Shown here one piece after another: positions 4,615 to 19,638 of a stretch of DNA of 23,433 nucleotides. Position 1 is the first letter of the stretch, and every line of letters begins with the position of its first letter. Location of the stretch: the IMG/VR virus record IMGVR_UViG_3300025305_000147, positions 1 to 23,433 of that record; one strand, written 5' to 3'. The DNA comes from a virus. Both the position numbers and the translations under genes were made by a program. The notes below the pieces were generated by a model. That model did not search any database. It saw only the letters and a list, made by a program, of their open reading frames with translations, and was not told where the DNA came from.

Positions 4615-6102
4615 ATGGACGTAGCTGCTGTTTCAAGTCAGGTCGAGGGTCTTCCTTTTGGTCAGCAGAAGGAAATACTGAGTCTTCTGGAGGAATTGCA
4701 CGACGCGAAGGATCGTGAGGGTGCCCACGAGGACTTTCTGGCATTTGTTCGGCAGGTTTGGCCCGCATTTATCGAGGGCAACCATCACCGTATCATGGCG
4801 GACGCATTCAATCGTATTGCCGAGGGCGAATTGAAGCGACTCATTATTAATATGCCGCCCCGTCATACGAAGTCCGAGTTCGCTTCTCATCTGTTTCCTG
4901 CGTGGTATTTGGGCAAGTTCCCTGACAGAAAGGTCATTCAGACGTCTCATACGGCGGAATTGGCCGTGGGATTCGGTCGTAAGGTGCGTAATCTGGTCGG
5001 TTCACCCGACTACAACCGCATCTTCCCGAACGTAGCACTGAGTGCAGACTCGAAAGCGGCGGGCCGGTGGAACACGAGCGAGCAGGGCGACTACTTCGCT
5101 ATTGGGGTAGGCGGTGCTGTTACGGGTAAGGGTGCGGACATCCTGATTGTTGACGACCCGCATTCTGAGCAGGAAGCCGCGCAAAACGATCCATCTGTTT
5201 ACGACAAGACATACGAATGGTACACCTCTGGTCCACGTCAGCGGTTACAGCCGGGCGGCGCGATCTGTGTAGTTATGACGCGCTGGTCGAAGAAAGATTT
5301 GACGGGCCAGATATTGAAGGCATCCATCGAGCGTGGCGGTGCTGACGAATGGGAGATCATAGAACTGCCCGCAATCCTGCCTAGCGGCAAACCGCTTTGG
5401 CCCGGATTCTGGCCGATAGAGCAGTTGGAGGCACTACACGCAGAACTTCCCGTATCGAAGTGGAGTACGCAGTACCAGCAAGATCCGACTGCGGAAGAGT
5501 CAGCCATCATCAAGAGGGAATGGTGGAATGAATGGAAGGAACGGAAACCGCCCGCCTGTGAATTTGTTATTCAGTCGTGGGACACCGCGTTTCTCGCCAA
5601 GGAAACGGCGGACTACAGCGCATGTACCACATGGGGCGTTTTCTATGACGAGGACAAGAACGCGAACATCATTTTACTGGACGCACTTCAGGAGCGACTG
5701 GAGTTTCCCGACTTGAAGGCGCGTGCCTACGAGATGTGGAAGGAATACGAGCCGGACGCATTTATTGTGGAGGCAAAGGCAGCAGGAAGCCCACTCATTT
5801 TCGAGCTTCGCCGTATCGGTATCCCCGTTGCCGAGTACACTCCCGGCAGAGGACGCGACAAAATTGCGCGAGTAAATGCTGTATCGGATTTGTTTCATAG
5901 CGGCCATGTATGGGCACCGAACAAGAGATGGGCGGAAGAAGTGATTGAACAATTCGCTTCTTTCCCTACGGGCGATCATGATGATTTAGTTGACTCATCC
6001 ACTCAGGCGTTGCTAAGGTTCAGGCAGGGCGGCTTCATAAGCTTGGACAGTGATGAACCCATGGACGATCTCATGCCGATGCGTCGGGCGGATTATTATT
6101 AG
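4615..6102 (+). CDS. terL: Terminase large subunit
   Basis: The packaging motor: an ATPase that pumps DNA into the prohead through the portal and a nuclease that cuts the concatemer. In 495 aa the N-terminal ATPase shows a Walker-A-like MPPRHTKSE (residues 80-88), Walker B ILIVDDPHS (176-184) and a coupling motif VVMTRWS (219-225). The C-terminal RNase-H-like nuclease shows SWDTAF (D323), IVEAKAAGSPL (E386) and GDHDDLVDSS (D454, D456, D457), giving the expected acidic triad. Length and motifs fit the Terminase_6 type. It starts 3 nt after the previous stop with GGGAATGAG just upstream. The expected small subunit is not recognisable nearby. Confidence 0.95.
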   Translation: MDVAAVSSQVEGLPFGQQKEILSLLEELHDAKDREGAHEDFLAFVRQVWPAFIEGNHHRIMADAFNRIAEGELKRLIINMPPRHTKSEFASHLFPAWYLGKFPDRKVIQTSHTAELAVGFGRKVRNLVGSPDYNRIFPNVALSADSKAAGRWNTSEQGDYFAIGVGGAVTGKGADILIVDDPHSEQEAAQNDPSVYDKTYEWYTSGPRQRLQPGGAICVVMTRWSKKDLTGQILKASIERGGADEWEIIELPAILPSGKPLWPGFWPIEQLEALHAELPVSKWSTQYQQDPTAEESAIIKREWWNEWKERKPPACEFVIQSWDTAFLAKETADYSACTTWGVFYDEDKNANIILLDALQERLEFPDLKARAYEMWKEYEPDAFIVEAKAAGSPLIFELRRIGIPVAEYTPGRGRDKIARVNAVSDLFHSGHVWAPNKRWAEEVIEQFASFPTGDHDDLVDSSTQALLRFRQGGFISLDSDEPMDDLMPMRRADYY

Positions 6103-6523
6103 CTATCTACAGCACGATACCCTAGCGACTGCGGGCAAAACTCCTGTCTGTAGTTTGTGTGGCGAGGAAACAAAAACAGGTGGCCTGTGGGCGGGGCATC
6201 AGAATATTGTTGTTTGCAGCCACGCTTGTGCGAAGAAAGTAATACTGCTGGCCCTCGACGCAATTTCTGGTGCTGATGGCTCTATATCATATGCAGAGTG
6301 GATGAAGCTGGCGGATAAATCCTATGATCGGTGGGAACGATACAATGTGTTACACCGTGAAAGCGAGAGGGATTTTGTGGATTCGCTATGCCCTGAGTGT
6401 AAAGTGAAACTAAACGAGAGACAATTCAGTTTCAGGGATAGTACCCAGTACGCGGTATATCCCCAGACTTGTCTTGGTTGCGAAAACCATTTGGAACCGG
6501 ATGTATGTCATGCCGATAGATAA
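6053..6523 (+). CDS. Cys-rich zinc-ribbon protein overlapping terL
   Basis: A 156-aa protein in a different frame from terL. Counting from the GTG at 6050, two metal-binding pairs are visible: C34xxC37 with C56 and C60 (CSLCGEE, CSHAC), and C114xxC117 (CPECK) with C141xxC144 (CLGCENH), each suited to one zinc. The linker is helical (about residues 60-105). The start is uncertain: ATG 6053 and GTG 6050 lie 50 nt inside terL, and no ATG, GTG or TTG occurs between there and the first zinc motif; ATT codons at 6092-6100 after GGGCGG are a non-standard alternative. It may bind DNA or a packaging partner, but no family is assigned. Confidence 0.7.
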   Translation: MNPWTISCRCVGRIIISYLQHDTLATAGKTPVCSLCGEETKTGGLWAGHQNIVVCSHACAKKVILLALDAISGADGSISYAEWMKLADKSYDRWERYNVLHRESERDFVDSLCPECKVKLNERQFSFRDSTQYAVYPQTCLGCENHLEPDVCHADR

Positions 6524-9002
6524 ATCACTGACGGGCCTTTTAGATCAGGACGAGTTTGAGATGGGGCCGGAAGGTCTCGTGGTCGTGGAGGAAGAAGAGA
6601 TTCCAGAAGATACCCTCCTAACCGAGATGGACGATGGGAGCATGGTAGTGGACTTCGATCCACTTTCCGAATTGTTGGGCGGCGAGGATGAGTTCGACTC
6701 AAATCTTGCCGAGTCAATAGAAGATAAGGAGTTGCGTACCATCGCCGTTGATCTCATCGGCAAGTTCGATGCAGACAAGAGGAGCAGGGGCGATTGGGAG
6801 CAGACCTACGAGGAAGGGCTCGACCAGTTGGGTCTGGAGATTGAGGATCGTACTACCCCATGGGCTGGAGCCTGTGGCGTATTTCATCCCATGCTTTCCG
6901 AGGCCGTGGTAAGATTCCAGAGCCAGACGATTCAGGAGATCATGCCAGCCAAGGGTCCGGTCAAAACCCAGATCTGGGGAATGGTAACGAAGGAACGGGA
7001 AAAACAGGCTCGTCGTGTTCAGGACTATATGAACTTCCAGCTTCTTGAAGTCATGACCGAATATCGGTCTGAGACCGAGAAGCTTCTTTTTAGCCTTCCT
7101 CTTGCAGGTTCCGCATTTCGTAAAATCTATTTCGATCCATCGCTTGGCCGACCGACTTCGATGTTTGTGCCCGCAGAAGATTTCGTGGTTTCATATAACG
7201 AGGCGGATCTGGAACAGGCGGAACGCTATACCCATGTAATGAAGAGGAGTACCAATCAGGTACGAAAACTTCAGGTCAACGGGTTTTACCGTGATGTAGA
7301 ATTGACTGCGTCCCATATAGAAGAGAACCCGATCACGGAGAAGTTGAACGAGATTGGTGGCGTGAGTCCGTCGTTCGAGAAGGAAGAACGCCACGAACTA
7401 TTGGAGATGCATGTAGATTTCGACTTGCCGGGACAGGAAGATCCCGATGGAGTCGCACTCCCATATGTCATTACTATCGACAAGGGCAGTGCCACCATTT
7501 TGTCGATTTACCGGAACTGGGCCGAAGACGACTCACACAGAATAAAAAAACAACATTTCGTGCATTACGGTTACGTTCCCGGTATCGGCTTTTACAACCT
7601 TGGCTTGATCCACATGATCGGCGGTCTCGCGAAATCAGCGACCAGTCTGCTGCGTCAACTGGTGGATGCGGGCACACTTTCCAATTTACCCGGAGGGCTA
7701 AAGACTCGTGGACTCAGAATCAAGGGCGACGACACGCCCATCATGCCCGGAGAATTCCGGGACGTTGATGTTCCGGGCGGTGTTATCCGGGACAATATCA
7801 CTTTCCTTCCTTACAAGGAACCTTCTTCGGTCCTTTATCAGTTACTGGGTAATATCGTCGAAGAGGGTCGTCGATTCGCTTCCATGGCGGACCTCAAAGT
7901 AGCAGACATGAACCAAGATGCTCCCGTTGGGACCACTCTTGCGATCATGGAGCGGGCGATGAAGGTACAGTCCGCAATTCAGGCACGCATTCACGCGAGC
8001 TTAAAACAGGAATTCAAGATTCTAGCACAGATTATCCACGATTATACGGACCCCGATTATCCATACGAGACGGACGAGGGCGAAGGGATCAAGGCTGAGG
8101 ACTTCGATGACCGGATCGATGTCGTTCCGGTATCCGATCCGAATGCAAGTACGATGGCTCAACGCATAATGCAGTATCAGGCGGCATTGCAACTGGCAGC
8201 ACAGGCACCGAATTTGTATGACCTGCCGCTGCTGCATCGACAGATGATGGAATTAATTGGTGTTCCCAACGCCGATAAGGTCGTGCCACAGCCTGACGAT
8301 GTACCACCGAAAGATCCTGTCAGCGAGAATCAGGACATGCTCACTCAGGCACCCGTCAAGGCGTTCGAGTATCAGGATCATGAAGCGCATATGCGTGTTC
8401 ATATGGTTCTCAAGAACGATCCGCAGATGGGTCAGGAAATGCAGAACAGTCCCATGGGCGGCGCAATATCAGGCGCACTCGATGCTCATGTACGCGAACA
8501 TCTGGCGTTCATATTCAGGGATCAGATCGAAACAGAGCTTGGCGTGGAGCTTCCGCCGTTCGGCGAGCCGCTGCCCCAAGATATGGAAAAACGTCTCAGC
8601 ACCTTGGTGGCCGACGCTGCCGACCAAATGCTGGGCAAGAAACAGCAACAAGCACAGGCAGCCGAAAATGCTGCCATGCAGGAAGATCCTATCGTTCAGC
8701 AGAGGGAACGCGAACTTGGTATCCGCGAAATGGAAGTCCAGCGGAAACAGCAGGCCGATTCAGCGAAGCAGCAGCTTGAGCAACAGAAGCTTGCTGCCAG
8801 CCAAGAGAAGGGTGCAGCAGAACTGGCCCTTGAAAGAGAGAAGCTTGCAAGCAAGCAGCAGATAGATGTTGCCGAATTGTCACTGGAAGAAGAGGAATTA
8901 AGACTAAAGGCCGAGCAGGACCAACAAAAATTCGAGTATTCACAGGAGTTGGAAGCAATGAAATTCGGACTAGAAGTCGCAAAGGAAGAAAAGAGTGAGT
9001 GA
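6510..9002 (+). CDS. Portal protein
   Basis: The dodecameric portal is the DNA gate, terminase dock and tail attachment site. Evidence is position (after terL, before scaffold and coat), size (about 830 aa, longer than P22 gp1 at 725 aa) and a recognisable segment TTPWAGACGVFHPMLSEAVV followed by RFQSQTIQEIMPAKGPVKT. The N-terminal ~75 residues are very acidic. The last ~135 residues are Gln/Glu-rich helix and coiled coil (QQQAQAAENAAMQ onward), comparable to the long helical barrel of P22-type portals. In-frame starts are TTG 6474, ATG 6501 and ATG 6510; I prefer 6510, which gives the least overlap with the zinc-ribbon gene, but RBS support is weak for all three. Confidence 0.88.
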   Translation: MPIDKSLTGLLDQDEFEMGPEGLVVVEEEEIPEDTLLTEMDDGSMVVDFDPLSELLGGEDEFDSNLAESIEDKELRTIAVDLIGKFDADKRSRGDWEQTYEEGLDQLGLEIEDRTTPWAGACGVFHPMLSEAVVRFQSQTIQEIMPAKGPVKTQIWGMVTKEREKQARRVQDYMNFQLLEVMTEYRSETEKLLFSLPLAGSAFRKIYFDPSLGRPTSMFVPAEDFVVSYNEADLEQAERYTHVMKRSTNQVRKLQVNGFYRDVELTASHIEENPITEKLNEIGGVSPSFEKEERHELLEMHVDFDLPGQEDPDGVALPYVITIDKGSATILSIYRNWAEDDSHRIKKQHFVHYGYVPGIGFYNLGLIHMIGGLAKSATSLLRQLVDAGTLSNLPGGLKTRGLRIKGDDTPIMPGEFRDVDVPGGVIRDNITFLPYKEPSSVLYQLLGNIVEEGRRFASMADLKVADMNQDAPVGTTLAIMERAMKVQSAIQARIHASLKQEFKILAQIIHDYTDPDYPYETDEGEGIKAEDFDDRIDVVPVSDPNASTMAQRIMQYQAALQLAAQAPNLYDLPLLHRQMMELIGVPNADKVVPQPDDVPPKDPVSENQDMLTQAPVKAFEYQDHEAHMRVHMVLKNDPQMGQEMQNSPMGGAISGALDAHVREHLAFIFRDQIETELGVELPPFGEPLPQDMEKRLSTLVADAADQMLGKKQQQAQAAENAAMQEDPIVQQRERELGIREMEVQRKQQADSAKQQLEQQKLAASQEKGAAELALEREKLASKQQIDVAELSLEEEELRLKAEQDQQKFEYSQELEAMKFGLEVAKEEKSE

Positions 9003-9183
9003 AGACGTCCTGTCGTTACTCAGAAAAAAGATTCGAGATGAAATGAACGAGTTGGCAGACCATCTGGCGGTAGGTTCTGCTCAGAATATAGAGGAATACC
9101 GTAAGATATGTGGTATGATAGAGGGTCTTGCATGGACGGAGCGCGAAATCATAGATATTGAGGAGAGACTTAGAGAACTTTAG
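8995..9183 (+). CDS. Small conserved phage coiled-coil protein (62 aa), GTG start
   Basis: A 62-aa helical protein beginning GTG AGT GAA, overlapping the portal stop by 8 nt, with AAAGGAAG (8981-8988) as RBS. The pattern LLRKKIRDEMNELADHLAVG, then EEYRKICGMIEGLA, then a C-terminal charged helix matches a small uncharacterised family that I recall sitting directly after portal genes in podovirus-like phages. It may help portal or prohead assembly, but no function is established from sequence. Confidence 0.8.
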   Translation: MSEDVLSLLRKKIRDEMNELADHLAVGSAQNIEEYRKICGMIEGLAWTEREIIDIEERLREL

Positions 9184-9244: not shown

Positions 9245-9667
9245 ATGGCTAGACTCGCACCAGAAACAGTAGATGAATATGACGGAGCAGTACCATCCCA
9301 AGAAGGATCGGAAGAAGAGCCGTCACCTCAACTTGCAACGCAATTGCCGGAGCCAAAAGGCTACAAATTGCTGATTGCACTCCCCGAAGTGGCCGAAACT
9401 ACTGAAAGTGGCATCATCAAGTCCATTAAATCCCAGCATGAAGAGTCAATTTCGACCGTGGTGGGCTGGGTGATAAGCATGGGTGCCGATGCCTATGCCA
9501 ATTTTTCTCGATTTCCTACTGGACCGTACTGTAAAGTGGGCGATTGGGTGGTATTCCGTGCTTTTTCTGGCACAAGAATCAAAATTCATGGCAAAGAATT
9601 CCGTTTAATCAACGACGACACTGTTGAAGCGGTTGTCCAAGACCCCAGAGGCGTAGAGAGGGCCTAA
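9245..9667 (+). CDS. GroES-like co-chaperonin (Cpn10)
   Basis: A 140-aa protein with a GroES fold signature in its C-terminal 100 residues. PKGYKLLIAL (37-46) is the first strand. ETTESGIIKSIKSQ (51-64) takes the place of the GroES mobile loop that contacts GroEL, with GII in place of GIV. STVVGWVISMG (70-80) matches the VxxVGxG strand, KVGDWVVFRAFSGTRIKIHG (97-116) the KVGDxVxFxxYxGTEVKxDG region, and FRLINDDTVEAVV (119-131) the final ILREDDILAVV-like strand. The acidic N-terminal 35 residues are extra. In phages such proteins replace host GroES so that GroEL can fold coat proteins (T4 gp31 is the known example). Its location just before scaffold and coat genes agrees. Confidence 0.85.
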   Translation: MARLAPETVDEYDGAVPSQEGSEEEPSPQLATQLPEPKGYKLLIALPEVAETTESGIIKSIKSQHEESISTVVGWVISMGADAYANFSRFPTGPYCKVGDWVVFRAFSGTRIKIHGKEFRLINDDTVEAVVQDPRGVERA

Positions 9668-9668
9668 A

Positions 9669-10700
9669 ATGAGCGAAGAAAACGAAAGAATGAGCAGCGA
9701 AGACAAATTTCTGGGCGTAAGGACGACCATCACGCCTACTGAATCGAATTCAGAGGGTGAGGAACTGACGGTTACCGACGATATCGACATTGAAGTCGTT
9801 GATGATCGCCCAAGCGAGGACCAAAGAGTCCCCGCAGCGAAAAAAGTGGACGATGATGTGGAATTGTCGGACGATGAACTGTCTCAGCTAGGGTCTCGTG
9901 CCCAAAAACGTATTAAAAAGCTTAAATGGGAGTATCACGAGGAGCGTAGAGCCAAGGAAAAGTCCGATAGGCTTGCATCTGAGGCTGTCAATTACACACA
10001 AAACCTGCAAGGGGAGAATCAGCGGCTGCTCAAACTGGTACATGATTCACAAAAGGCCCTGACGGAAAGAAGTCGGTATGGTGCGGAAGCTGCCCTTGCT
10101 GTTGCACAGGAAAACTACAAAAAGGCACACGAATCTGGTGATTCCGAGCAGATTATGGTGGCGCAACAAAACTTGACTGCTGCACAATTGGCTCAAGCGG
10201 CTGCGCCGGATGTATCGCAGAAGGTTATTGATAACTGGAAAAGTCAGGTGATGGCTGAACAGCGTCAAGCTCATAGGGAGCAGCCTGAAGAAGAATTTCG
10301 TGTTCCTGAACCCGATGCAAGGGCCGTGGAATGGCAGGAAGCCAACCCGTGGTTCGGCAATGACAAGGAAATGACGAGCTTTGCGTATGGTGTGCATGAA
10401 AAGCTCGTTGCCGATGAAGGTGTTGACCCTACTTCGGAAGAGTATTATGAATTAATCAACAAACGCATGGAAGAAGTTTTCCCAGCGCATTTCAGTAGCA
10501 ACGTATCGGCATCGCAAGATTCTGTTATTGTTGAGACTGCACCTCGTCGCAAGGCGAGCCCCGTGGTTGCGCCAGCGTCCAGAAACAATGGCGCGGTACC
10601 TCGCAAAGTTGTGTTAACCTCGACCCAAGTGTCGCTTGCAAAGCGTTTGGGGCTGACGCCTCAGCAATATGCACAACAGCTTCTTAAGGAGATGTCCTAA
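9669..10700 (+). CDS. Scaffolding protein (probable)
   Basis: A 343-aa protein with the make-up of a capsid scaffold: an acidic, probably disordered N-terminus (residues 1-75), a long charged coiled coil from about 78 (QKRIKKLKWEYHEERRAKE) to about 180 rich in Gln and Ala, and a small basic C-terminal domain (KVVLTSTQVSLAKRLGLTPQ) that could bind coat protein. It would guide prohead assembly and then leave. It follows the GroES-like gene by 1 nt and its stop overlaps the next start (TAATG). Identification rests on composition and position, since scaffolds diverge fast. Confidence 0.78.
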   Translation: MSEENERMSSEDKFLGVRTTITPTESNSEGEELTVTDDIDIEVVDDRPSEDQRVPAAKKVDDDVELSDDELSQLGSRAQKRIKKLKWEYHEERRAKEKSDRLASEAVNYTQNLQGENQRLLKLVHDSQKALTERSRYGAEAALAVAQENYKKAHESGDSEQIMVAQQNLTAAQLAQAAAPDVSQKVIDNWKSQVMAEQRQAHREQPEEEFRVPEPDARAVEWQEANPWFGNDKEMTSFAYGVHEKLVADEGVDPTSEEYYELINKRMEEVFPAHFSSNVSASQDSVIVETAPRRKASPVVAPASRNNGAVPRKVVLTSTQVSLAKRLGLTPQQYAQQLLKEMS

Positions 10701-11173
10701 TGGCTGAGAAACGCGCTCCAAGGGAGCCCAGATCTTTAGACACTCGTGAAAACGAGAGTCGTGAGAGGTCGTGGGAGCCCGCATCCATTCTTCCAGACCC
10801 TGAGCCGCAAGATGGTTGGGTGTTTCGGTGGATACGAACTTCTATGGTAGGCCATCCAGACAACACGAACGTGTCAAAGCGTTTTCGTGAAGGATGGGAA
10901 CCTGTTCGTGCCGAAGATCACCCGGAAATGCAGATCATGAGTGATCATGATTCGGACTGGGCAAGGAAAGGTGGAATTGAAGTCGGTGGTTTGCTGCTCT
11001 GTAAGGCAGCGCAAGAGGAAGTGGAAGCTAGGCAGCAGTATTATGCCCAGCACGCTCGATCACAGATGCAAGCCGTCGATAATGCTTATATGCGTGAGAA
11101 CGATCCTCGGATGCCGGTTCTTGCGCCTGATCGTAAAACCCGCGTGGCTTTTGGCAAAGGTAGTAGAGGCTAG
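10700..11173 (+). CDS. Conserved head-associated phage protein (157 aa)
   Basis: A 157-aa protein with the pattern FRWIRTSMVGHPDNTNVSKR, REGWEPVRAEDHPE, GGIEVGGLLLCK and MQAVDNAYMRENDPRMPVL. I recall this as a conserved uncharacterised family located between scaffold and coat genes in marine podovirus-like phages. It is very basic at the N-terminus, with a helical segment at about 103-130. It starts within the scaffold stop (TAATG) and is probably a minor capsid or assembly component. Function is not established. Confidence 0.75.
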   Translation: MAEKRAPREPRSLDTRENESRERSWEPASILPDPEPQDGWVFRWIRTSMVGHPDNTNVSKRFREGWEPVRAEDHPEMQIMSDHDSDWARKGGIEVGGLLLCKAAQEEVEARQQYYAQHARSQMQAVDNAYMRENDPRMPVLAPDRKTRVAFGKGSRG

Positions 11174-11201: not shown

Positions 11202-11819
11202 ATGGCTACAACGGCAACACCGTATGGGGCTAGACCGATTGGCTCTCTCAGTTGTTCCGGGTCTTATACCGGAAAGGTGAGACATCTGCCGATCATTACG
11301 ACGTATGGCACCCAGATTTCTTACGGTGATTTTTGTAAGGTCGCGTCAGATGGTACCATTGCAAAGGATACTGGTACTACTGCGACGACTGCAGTCGGGA
11401 TCTTCATGGGCTGTTCTTATACAGACCCAACAACAAATCAGAAGACGTTTTCGCAGTTCTGGCCTGCATCTAATGCAGCAACTGATGCGATGGCGTATGT
11501 GCTTGATGATCCTTTCGTCGTGTTTCAAATGCAGGCTGACGAGGCAATGAATACTACGGATCGCGGATTGAATGCATCCATAGTCGTTACAGCAGGTAGT
11601 AGCACTCTCGGCCACTCCAAGAGTGCGCTTGATGGTAGTACGCCAGCTACAACGAACACGTTGCCTCTTCGTATCATTGATTTCGTTGAAGGGCCTAGCA
11701 GCCTACCCCCAAAGGGGACAACGGCCAGTGATGCATATCCAGATGTTATCGTGAAGTTTAACGCCGCTTCTAGCGGGTCAGCTTCTAATCATTCCTACTT
11801 GAACGCCACTGGCGTATAG
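11202..11819 (+). CDS. Probable capsid decoration or head structural protein (205 aa)
   Basis: A 205-aa beta-rich, Thr/Ser-rich protein with few charges. Recognisable segments are TPYGARPIGSLSCSGSYTG at the N-terminus, ISYGDFCKVASDGTIAKDTG, GIFMGCSYTDPTTNQKTFSQ and AYVLDDPFVVFQMQAD. I recall related proteins directly before the coat gene in uncultivated marine phages. The position suggests a head decoration protein or other abundant virion part. TGAGGTAATT before the ATG is a good RBS, and the coat gene begins 11 nt later. The precise role is inferred from context only. Confidence 0.75.
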   Translation: MATTATPYGARPIGSLSCSGSYTGKVRHLPIITTYGTQISYGDFCKVASDGTIAKDTGTTATTAVGIFMGCSYTDPTTNQKTFSQFWPASNAATDAMAYVLDDPFVVFQMQADEAMNTTDRGLNASIVVTAGSSTLGHSKSALDGSTPATTNTLPLRIIDFVEGPSSLPPKGTTASDAYPDVIVKFNAASSGSASNHSYLNATGV

Positions 11820-11830
11820 GAGACTGACTA

Positions 11831-12766
11831 ATGGCTATTTCACGAGCACAACTTCTCAAGGAACTACTTCCGGGCCTTAACGCACTCTTTGGATTGGAGT
11901 ATGCACGGTACGATGACGAGCATTCCGAGATCTATGAGACGGAAAGTTCCAGTAGATCTTTCGAGGAAGAAGTGAAGCTTTCGGGCTTCGATGCTGCCCC
12001 GGTTAAGGATGAAGGGTCGGCAATTTCGTATGACGCTGCACAGGAGAGCTTTACGGCTCGTTACAATCATGAGACAGTCGCCATGGGCTTTGCTATCACA
12101 GAAGAAGCCATGGAAGACAATCTCTACGATTCCCTGTCGGCTCGTTACACCAAGGCTTTGGCTCGCGCCATGGCCCACACCAAGCAGGTGAAGGCAGTAT
12201 TCCCGCTTAATAACGGGTTCACCAACGCTTTTCAGAGCGGCGACGGTGTAAATCTCTTTACGGCATCAAGTGATGGCGTAACTGGCGGAGACGGTCACCC
12301 ACTCGTTTCGGGTGGTACGAACTCGAACCGTCCAGCTACTGCTGTTGACCTCAACGAGACTTCTCTTGAGGCTGCCGTAATCCAGATTGGCAAATGGACG
12401 GATGAGCGTGGTCTATTGATCGCTGCTCGCCCCCAGACGCTTGTCATCCCGCCCGACTTGCAGTTCGTGGCGACACGGGTGATGAAATCTGAACTTCGTC
12501 CTTCAACCGCCGACAACGACATCAATGCTGTAAGAAGCATGGGTGTTGTGCCCGGTGGTACGGTCGTGAACCACTTCCTGACGGATACGGATGCATGGTT
12601 CCTTCTGACCGATGTTCCAGATGGGATGAAGCACTTCAATCGTGTTGCTCTTGAGACAAGCATGGACGGTGATTTCGATACCGGAAATGTTCGTTATAAG
12701 GCTCGCGAGCGGTACAGCTTCGGTGTCTCCGACCCACTAGGGATCTGGGGTTCGCCGGGAGCGTAA
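11831..12766 (+). CDS. Major capsid protein
   Basis: A 311-aa protein in the coat position with features of an HK97-fold coat related to the Mu gpT type: an N-terminal E-rich arm (SEIYETESSSRSFEEEVKLS) followed by GFDAAPVKDEGSAISYD, MGFAITEEAMEDN, an insertion with DGVNLFTASSDG and GDGHPLVSGG, RPQTLVIPPDLQFVATRV in the core and YKARERYSFGVSDPLGIWGS at the C-terminus. It makes the icosahedral shell, helped by the scaffold and probably the phage GroES-like protein upstream. AGGAG (11819-11823) supports the start. A structured gap follows, as often after coat genes, which may separate its expression level from downstream genes. Confidence 0.88.
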   Translation: MAISRAQLLKELLPGLNALFGLEYARYDDEHSEIYETESSSRSFEEEVKLSGFDAAPVKDEGSAISYDAAQESFTARYNHETVAMGFAITEEAMEDNLYDSLSARYTKALARAMAHTKQVKAVFPLNNGFTNAFQSGDGVNLFTASSDGVTGGDGHPLVSGGTNSNRPATAVDLNETSLEAAVIQIGKWTDERGLLIAARPQTLVIPPDLQFVATRVMKSELRPSTADNDINAVRSMGVVPGGTVVNHFLTDTDAWFLLTDVPDGMKHFNRVALETSMDGDFDTGNVRYKARERYSFGVSDPLGIWGSPGA

Positions 12767-17550: not shown

Positions 17551-19638
17551 ATGGCGGATTATGTCAACAATCTAAGGCTGACGGAGATTGCGACAGGTGA
17601 CGAGTCAGGCACTTGGGGCACCACGACAAATACCAATTTAGAGCTTATAGCAGATGCTTTTGGTTCCGGTACCGAAGCCATTACAACCAATGCAGATACG
17701 CATACTACTACTATAGCAAATGGTTCGGCTGACGAAGGCAGGGCCATATACCTGAAGTATACGGGCACATTGGATTCTGCCTGCACCATTACTCTGGCAC
17801 CGAACACGATAAACAAACTCTGGATTATCGAGAATGCGACAAGTGGTTCTCAAAATATCATTATCAGTCAGGGTTCAGGGGCCAACATTACAATCGGCAA
17901 TGGCAAGGTTTCGGCAATCTTTACGGATGGTGCCGGGTCTGGTGCGGCTGTTCTGGATGCGTTTGCCGACCTAGAACTGAGCAGCACCCTGACCGTGGCT
18001 GGCGCGAGTACGCTTACTGGTGCTGTCACGATGAGCGGCGATGCCAGTGTAGGCGATGATCTAACTCTCGTGTCAGATGCGGCAGTTCTAAACTTTGGCG
18101 CGGATAGCGATGTAAATCTTACCCATGTGGCTGATACTGGGTTGCTCCTTAATTCCACAATGCAGCTTCAGTTCAATGACTCGTCACAGTTTATCAATGC
18201 GCCCAGTAACGCAATTCTCGACATTAACGCTACCGACGAAATCGAGTTGAATGCTACTGCCGTTGACTTGAACGGCACTTTGGATGTGTCAGGGACAAGC
18301 ACTTTGACTGGCAATGTCACGATGTCTGCCGATGCTACGGTAGGTGATGATCTAACATTGTTGTCGGATGCCGGAGTTTTGGGCTTTGGTGCAGATACGG
18401 ATGTTACTCTTACCCATGTAGCCGATACCGGATTGCTGCTGAATTCCACAATGCAGCTTCAATTCAACGACTCATCCCAGTACATCAACGCTCCTAGTGC
18501 AACCGTCCTTGATATCAATGCTACCGACGAAATTGAATTAAACGCTACTGCTGTTGATCTGAACGGTACGCTGGATGTATCTGGAACAAGCACGATGGCG
18601 GGCGACCTGAATGTCGATTCGGGAATCCTATTTGTCGATGTATCGAATGATGTTGTTGGCATAAATACCACCAGCCCGCTCGACAGCCAATATCTGCACG
18701 TTATAGCAAATAGCGGAGAGGGTGCGTTGAGTCCCGCATCCCAATCAGTTGCTACGTTTCAGCGTAATTCGGGTTCCGGGGTTTCAGCCTATATTTCGGT
18801 TGGTTCGGGTTCTGCCGAAGAAGCCGGTATTCTGCTTGGTGACAAGGACGGACTGGAGGTCGCTGGGGTCAAGTACAATAATAGCGACTCGTCAATGGCA
18901 TTTCGGGTCAGTAATTCCAACAGGATGGTTATAGATTCGAGCGGTAGGGTAGGAATTGGAACGACAGCCCCTTCCGGCTATGAGGCGGGTGCAGACGATC
19001 TAGTTCTCTATACGTCTGGTGCTACGGGAATGACCATCGCCTCCGGTACTTCAAGCAATGGAGTGATCCATTTCGCTGATGGAACAACCGGCGATGATGA
19101 ATATCGTGGCATCATCAAGTATCGGCATTCTGCTAACGACATGATCTTCAGTGCCGACGCTACGGTGTCGCTTACGCTGACAAGTTCTGGGGCCACGGTA
19201 GCAGGGGCACTCTCCAAGGGGTCCGGCTCCTTTAAGATCGACCACCCGCTCCCATTGATGAACGACACGCACCATCTGGTCCATAGTTTCATTGAGGGAC
19301 CAAGGGCGGATTTGATATATCGGGGAACTGCCACGCTTTCGTCCGGTTGGGTTCAGGTAGATTTGGACGAGGAAGCAGGAATGACCGATGGAACGTGGGA
19401 GCTACTGTGTAGAGATCCGCAGGCATGGATTCAAAATGATACGGGCTGGGACGGTGTAAGAGGTTCTGTCGAGGGTGGAACGCTCACGATTGAATGTCAG
19501 GACACCGATTCGAGCGACACGGTTTCGTGGATGGTCGTGGCAGAACGTCAGGATCAGCACATTATGGAAACGCCATGGACCGACGATGATGGTCGTCCGA
19601 TCCTTGAGCCAGAAAAGCCCGACGATGACGATGAATAG
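17551..19638 (+). CDS. Tail fibre protein with 97-aa tandem repeats
   Basis: A 695-aa Ser/Thr/Asp-rich fibre, probably trimeric. Residues 1-140 form a virion-attachment region (MADYVNNLRLTEIATGDESG). Residues 146-242 and 243-339 are two near-identical 97-aa repeats (core LTHVADTGLLLNSTMQLQFN and DINATDEIELNATAVDLNG), with a partial third unit from 340. RVGIGTTAPSGYEAG (about 475) is a motif of fibre shafts. The last ~110 residues form a distinct domain (HHLVHSFIEGPRADLIYRGT; VSWMVVAERQDQH) with an acidic tail ending DDDDE; this may be the receptor-binding or trimerising tip. AGGGGCTAGGGA precedes the ATG. Confidence 0.85.
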   Translation: MADYVNNLRLTEIATGDESGTWGTTTNTNLELIADAFGSGTEAITTNADTHTTTIANGSADEGRAIYLKYTGTLDSACTITLAPNTINKLWIIENATSGSQNIIISQGSGANITIGNGKVSAIFTDGAGSGAAVLDAFADLELSSTLTVAGASTLTGAVTMSGDASVGDDLTLVSDAAVLNFGADSDVNLTHVADTGLLLNSTMQLQFNDSSQFINAPSNAILDINATDEIELNATAVDLNGTLDVSGTSTLTGNVTMSADATVGDDLTLLSDAGVLGFGADTDVTLTHVADTGLLLNSTMQLQFNDSSQYINAPSATVLDINATDEIELNATAVDLNGTLDVSGTSTMAGDLNVDSGILFVDVSNDVVGINTTSPLDSQYLHVIANSGEGALSPASQSVATFQRNSGSGVSAYISVGSGSAEEAGILLGDKDGLEVAGVKYNNSDSSMAFRVSNSNRMVIDSSGRVGIGTTAPSGYEAGADDLVLYTSGATGMTIASGTSSNGVIHFADGTTGDDEYRGIIKYRHSANDMIFSADATVSLTLTSSGATVAGALSKGSGSFKIDHPLPLMNDTHHLVHSFIEGPRADLIYRGTATLSSGWVQVDLDEEAGMTDGTWELLCRDPQAWIQNDTGWDGVRGSVEGGTLTIECQDTDSSDTVSWMVVAERQDQHIMETPWTDDDGRPILEPEKPDDDDE
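17986..18567 (+). repeat. Two tandem 291-bp coding repeats in the fibre gene
   Basis: Units 17986-18276 and 18277-18567 encode nearly the same 97 aa, with a partial third unit after 18568. Many differences fall at third codon positions while the protein is kept, so the duplication is old and under selection on the protein. Confidence 0.8.

Follow-up and report, generated by a model that had tools for sequence, protein, structure and literature searches.

GroEL, a protein-folding machine of bacteria, has GroES as its lid, and the usual limit of the GroEL-GroES cage is about 60 kDa. Co-chaperonins carried by phages are usually explained by reference to T4, whose coat protein is too large for the bacterial cage. 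In T4 gp31, the roof loops are missing and the cage is enlarged for the oversized coat (PMC6318259). The HTVC023P-type pelagiphages have 13 core genes, of which co-chaperonin GroES is one (PMC9599517); the gene was thus already on record for these phages, and the co-chaperonin described here is not new in kind. What the present analysis adds is its close link with one coat/portal lineage and an altered GroEL-docking tripeptide: in a phage lineage that is abundant in marine and fresh waters, a GroES gene accompanies the coat/portal module wherever this is found, small though the coat is. The reason for a phage to supply a lid of its own can be tested in the cultivated phages Caulobacter RW, Alcaligenes QDWS535 and HTVC023P, and Lys/Arg in the docking tripeptide makes a concrete prediction on GroEL affinity.

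The Head Module

The window, i.e., the whole stretch of DNA analyzed here, is an entire IMG/VR record of 23,433 bases, linear, from a marine virus that infects bacteria, and probably represents a genome fragment. Its head module comprises, in order:

4615-6102, + strand, large terminase subunit (TerL), from profile matches
6474-9002, + strand, portal protein (phrog_1216)
8995-9183, + strand, 62-residue acidic ORF directly upstream of the co-chaperonin gene, conserved in relatives
9245-9667, + strand, GroES/Cpn10-fold co-chaperonin, 140 residues, from profile, PHROG, PDB, structure and alignment evidence
9669-10700, + strand, 343-residue acidic scaffold candidate, proposed from position and composition only (phrog_28737, unknown function)
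10700-11173, + strand, 157-residue conserved head-module protein, from synteny and phrog_36003 (unknown function)
11202-11819, + strand, 205-residue conserved head-module protein, from synteny and phrog_37556
11831-12766, + strand, major capsid (coat) protein, Mu gpT-like, 311 residues, 33.7 kDa (phrog_371)

The TTG start of the portal gene in the mechanical listing is probably too early, with an in-frame ATG at 6513. The 62-residue ORF, which has no match in PHROG, carries a motif, MNE.AD..A.G.A.D..EYR...G.IEGLA..ER...DLE, that is kept in nearly all relatives of the locus; the product, a conserved but unnamed head-module component, is probably helical. The 205-residue protein has a weak, sub-cut-off match to an XM1 gp53-like minor capsid protein. 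The scaffold candidate begins one nucleotide past the co-chaperonin stop codon, and the gene order is the same in relatives. A sequence-only reading had placed the co-chaperonin gene next to scaffold and coat genes: the scaffold candidate does lie directly downstream, but the coat gene is about 2.2 kb away and non-adjacent.

Other features of the window lie outside this gene order. Between TerL and the portal, a 157-residue ORF (6050-6523, + strand) with no match in PHROG encodes several CxxC pairs, zinc-ribbon-like, and overlaps both neighbors. At 18024-18593, inside a tail-fibre-like ORF (17551-19638), two tandem copies of a 291-bp unit match at 77%, an in-frame duplication of a domain of about 97 residues. 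A perfect 22-bp tandem repeat present in 2.6 copies (ACGTCCGTACCATTCCTATATG) occupies 1027-1084, where coding potential is poor. Spurious ORFs close by contain similar "VRTI" stretches, which makes the repeat a possible regulatory element.

Sequence and Predicted Fold of the Co-chaperonin

The protein encoded at 9245-9667 matches Pfam Cpn10 (PF00166) over residues 38-131 with 35.6 bits (E = 9.7e-9), above the curated cut-off of 21.1 bits, and phrog_3188, "co-chaperonin GroES," with E = 4.8e-15. NCBIfam GroES models also match, with scores under their cut-offs, as expected of a diverged phage form. Used as a single sequence, the protein finds GroES sequences in the PDB at E = 5e-5; a profile of its family reaches 3e-6 to 3e-7 (Thermus Cpn10, E = 3e-6), and the Cpn10 profile in turn matches 48 of 52 family members. 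The chain can be divided as follows:

residues 1-30, variable acidic N-terminal extension
residues 33-39, conserved lead QLPEPKG
residues 54-60, mobile loop ESGIIKS
residues 61-69, helix after the mobile loop, predicted in the AlphaFold2 model
residues 81-98, roof segment
residues 97-104, KVGDWVVF
residues 109-116, GTRIKIHG
residues 124-131, DDTVEAVV
residues 132-140, C-terminal tail QDPRGVERA

The motifs cited in the sequence-only reading are all present, namely S55-G-I-I-K-S60 in the mobile loop, K97-V-G-D-W-V-V-F104 (KVGDxVxF), G109-T-R-I-K-I-H-G116 (GTxxKxxG) and V127-E-A-V-V131, but VEAVV is not the end of the protein as that reading had it: the strongly conserved nine-residue tail follows. 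The acidic N-terminus that it described is acidic here, with a net charge of -7 over residues 2-32, but the extension is poorly conserved across the family, in which its length varies from 7 to 54 residues, its median charge is -2 and about 70% of members are net negative.

An AlphaFold2 model, built from 52 aligned relatives that came from viral and genome contigs, has a mean pLDDT of 87.4; most of the core exceeds 94, and the first 30 residues are at about 60. The model contains a GroES-type β-barrel, the fold that marks Cpn10 membership, so the predicted structure agrees with the proposed likeness to GroES and gp31. The best 36 PDB matches of the model in Foldseek are all chains of the Cpn10 family; they include the M. 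tuberculosis, human (Hsp10), Thermus and E. coli Cpn10 chains, the chloroplast co-chaperonins of 7ekq, T4 gp31 (1g31, E = 7.5e-4) and the GroEL-gp31 complex (2cgt). Identity is 19-26% in most structural matches to GroES/Cpn10. The top viral structure matches are proteins named "Co-chaperonin GroES," some with an rmsd of 1.3-1.6 over about 105 residues.

The gene is under purifying selection: the median pairwise dN/dS is about 0.08 over residues 32-140, in 42 pairs with unsaturated dS. A chance motif match is rejected by the Pfam and phrog_3188 matches, the Foldseek results and the number of viral relatives (see below). Family, fold, synteny and selection agree, and the identification of the product as a phage GroES-fold co-chaperonin encoded within a head cluster is well supported; the proposal of a phage-encoded GroES-like protein is thereby borne out.

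Distribution Among Phages

A protein search found at least 600 relatives of the co-chaperonin in viral contigs. Annotated carriers include phages of Planktothrix/Synechococcus, Pelagibacter, Roseobacter, Caulobacter and gammaproteobacteria, and the gene is nearly always labelled GroES, as in the pelagiphages HTVC023P/HTVC027P, CRP-901/902, Caulobacter RW and the Planktothrix phages; Alcaligenes phage QDWS535 has a Cpn10 gene at the same place. The gene order is common to phages of Alphaproteobacteria, Gammaproteobacteria and cyanobacteria. The window protein belongs with the co-chaperonins of the HTVC023P-like head module (phrog_3188): it is a homologue encoded between portal and scaffold/coat genes, with both coat and portal homologous.

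In a tree whose hosts are only Pseudomonadota, and in which a mis-extracted fragment (the vir526 row) and the T4 gp31 placement (apparently long-branch noise) are not relied on, the phage Cpn10s form a clade apart from 30 cellular GroES proteins with a bootstrap of 87; this separation leaves recent capture from a host unsupported. A prophage origin was also considered and rejected, the matches in the genome collection being either phage-like contigs binned into MAGs or ordinary cellular GroES. The assembly Maricaulis MAG IN14 (genome G003, L093) has one cellular GroES and, on small contigs, ten more Cpn10 genes whose scores are phage-like; the bin therefore probably contains many contigs of related phages. 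Separately, a phage-type Cpn10 (57 bits; L228, G035:C12:129280-129564) is found on a 465-kb contig of a bacterial genome with its own GroES, probably a prophage of a related lineage.

Association With the Coat and Portal Lineage

To avoid sampling on the co-chaperonin itself, viral contigs were collected by their coat protein, yielding 80 loci, 58 of which extend 2.7 kb or more upstream of the coat gene. The co-chaperonin gene is present in all 58, and its end lies 2.0-2.5 kb ahead of the coat. The coat lineage is represented by 21 records of annotated phages, with identity down to about 29%, and Cpn10 is found in every one, in 16 (including HTVC023P) by whole-record HMM search and in five by tblastn; the genomes of the coat lineage are related, and the 58/58 and 21/21 counts represent non-independent events. 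Searches from the two most distant members returned the same 21 records and one distant fragment, MT836833 (10.8 kb), which has a coat match and no Cpn10. Conversely, none of the 11 phages with a related terminase but no phrog_371 coat has Cpn10.

The association extends beyond a fixed position. In vir526, which is assigned to Methanomicrobiales and has the same coat lineage, Cpn10 lies upstream of TerL (L103, 1027-1383), and in ct7ZZ929/ctJAH347 it is far away from the head genes; its retention is thus not merely positional hitch-hiking. The portal lineage (18 records) has nearly the same distribution as the coat lineage, so the partner of the co-chaperonin is the head module, within which the coat is not separable from the portal.

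A Modified Mobile Loop and a Conserved Roof and Tail

In the cellular GroES proteins sampled, the third GroEL-contact residue of the mobile loop is always hydrophobic (Ile/Val/Leu), as in GGIIIP, GGILLP and SGIVIP. The window protein keeps G-I-I and has Lys at the third contact residue. Across 148 family members, the tripeptide is mostly [ILV]-[ILYVF]-[KR], with Lys/Arg at the third position in 124 and a hydrophobic residue in 23. Textbook loops are kept by distant phage relatives that share the synteny (HTVC027P, GGLIL; DSL-LC04, GGIVL; Caulobacter RW, GGIIL), and the basic residue therefore probably arose inside the phage family. Lys at this position could weaken GroEL binding. On a simple count, the loop exceeds that of cellular GroES by about four residues; in several family members it is rearranged. 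The ordered loop and the helix at residues 61-69 in the AlphaFold2 model are only suggestive. Conservation of the loop residues thus holds in part: most members retain G-[ILV]-[IL], yet Lys/Arg mostly occupies the third contact position and the arrangement has changed in several.

Measured by information content, the loop motif, with 2.9 bits, is conserved to about the same degree as the core on average (3.1); the stretch after the loop, with 1.9, is much less so, and the barrel and the C-terminal tail are more so. In the family alignment, roof residues Y84, F90, P91, G93 and C96 and tail residues D133, P134 and G136 (the DPRG tail) are near-invariant. Part of the conservation at about 33-40, 60-67, 79-86, 95-101 and 122-129 reflects a bias, since the first search for relatives started from those peptides; the coat-sampled set is free of it. 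The roof is highly conserved. The segment from G80 to KVGD is GroES-like in length, and a roofless lid of the gp31 type is rejected on that length.

Proposed Function and Alternatives

Neither the window, a fragment, nor any of 11 relatives was found to encode Cpn60 (GroEL), so a phage-encoded GroEL partner finds no support in these genomes and the lid would have to use host GroEL, if any. We favor, with a probability of roughly 80%, a GroES-type co-chaperonin that resides in the portal-scaffold-coat module and acts as a heptameric lid of host GroEL over a head protein. The co-chaperonin would assemble into a heptamer, its modified mobile loop would bind the apical domains of host GroEL, and the lid would shut a head protein, in all likelihood the 33.7-kDa coat, into the cage late in infection, when synthesis of structural proteins surges. 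Association and abundance make the coat the best candidate client. The sequence-only reading went further in proposing dedicated folding of the coat by host GroEL. Host GroEL as the partner is the natural expectation where no phage Cpn60 is found; dedication to the coat is supported by genetic association only, since the gene tracks the portal-scaffold-coat module and the coat is inseparable from the portal.

Against the favored reading stand the Lys third contact, the fragment MT836833 with its coat match and no Cpn10, the relatedness of the genomes counted, and a coat that host GroES could accommodate; at 33.7 kDa this coat is so far below the cage limit that the T4 rationale of a bigger cage fails here. 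The phage may instead gain an extra supply of lids after host synthesis has stopped, a roof adapted to its own coat, or a different GroEL affinity via the altered loop. GroES and gp31 each serve several substrates, and a small coat needs no special cage; the protein might accordingly be a general-purpose lid, boosting or redirecting host GroEL to the benefit of many proteins of the phage or the host rather than of the head module specifically. We regard this as unlikely, because the gene goes with the head module in 58/58 and 21/21 cases and is lacking in the related-terminase controls.

Slightly less likely still is reuse of the GroES fold in a head-assembly factor or virion component that works without GroEL, e.g., a ring acting with portal, scaffold or coat. 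The altered tripeptide in most members, rearranged loops in some, the ordered, helix-containing loop of the model, the highly conserved roof and C-terminal tail, and a distribution bound to the head module would all suit such a protein, whereas the retention of G-[ILV]-[ILYFV] in most members and the textbook GGIVL/GGILL/GGIIL loops of distant relatives with the same synteny speak against it. A derived tripeptide beside a conserved roof and tail could likewise mean that a protein which began as a general lid of GroEL has become an assembly ring specific to coat or portal, with weak or no GroEL dependence, a scenario to which we give equally little credence. That the gene is a decayed passenger recently taken from a host and lacking a phage function is scarcely credible: some pelagiphage genes are indeed host-derived auxiliary genes (PMC9599517), but strong purifying selection, the clade apart from cellular GroES and conserved synteny contradict it.

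Comparison With Known Systems

The host-GroEL lid proposed here resembles bacterial GroES in its barrel, its KxGDxVxF and GTxxK motifs and the position of its loop, and differs in the longer loop, the Lys third contact, the N-terminal extension, the conserved C-terminal tail and its separate clade. With T4 gp31 it shares a phage GroES fold serving capsid assembly, by experiment for gp31 and by inference for the window protein. The parallel, drawn already from sequence and supported by the 1g31 match, stops at the cage: the roof segment is present and the 33.7-kDa coat fits a normal one. Moreover, the T4 gp31 gene is away from the head genes and its coat, gp23, is large, whereas the window gene lies inside the head cluster. 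The siphovirus Pseudoalteromonas phage B8b also has a GroES-like gene among structural genes (PMC4294664), located just before the tape-measure gene region, unlike the place between portal and coat in the window. The closest systems are the HTVC023P-type phages (HTVC023P, HTVC027P, 023Pt_psg01), CRP-901/902, DSL-LC04 and Pag-Yong1/MinM2, in which a phrog_3188 homologue sits between portal and scaffold/coat; the window subfamily is set apart by its Lys third contact and DPRG tail, while HTVC027P, DSL-LC04 and CRP-902 have hydrophobic GG[ILV][ILV][LI] loops.
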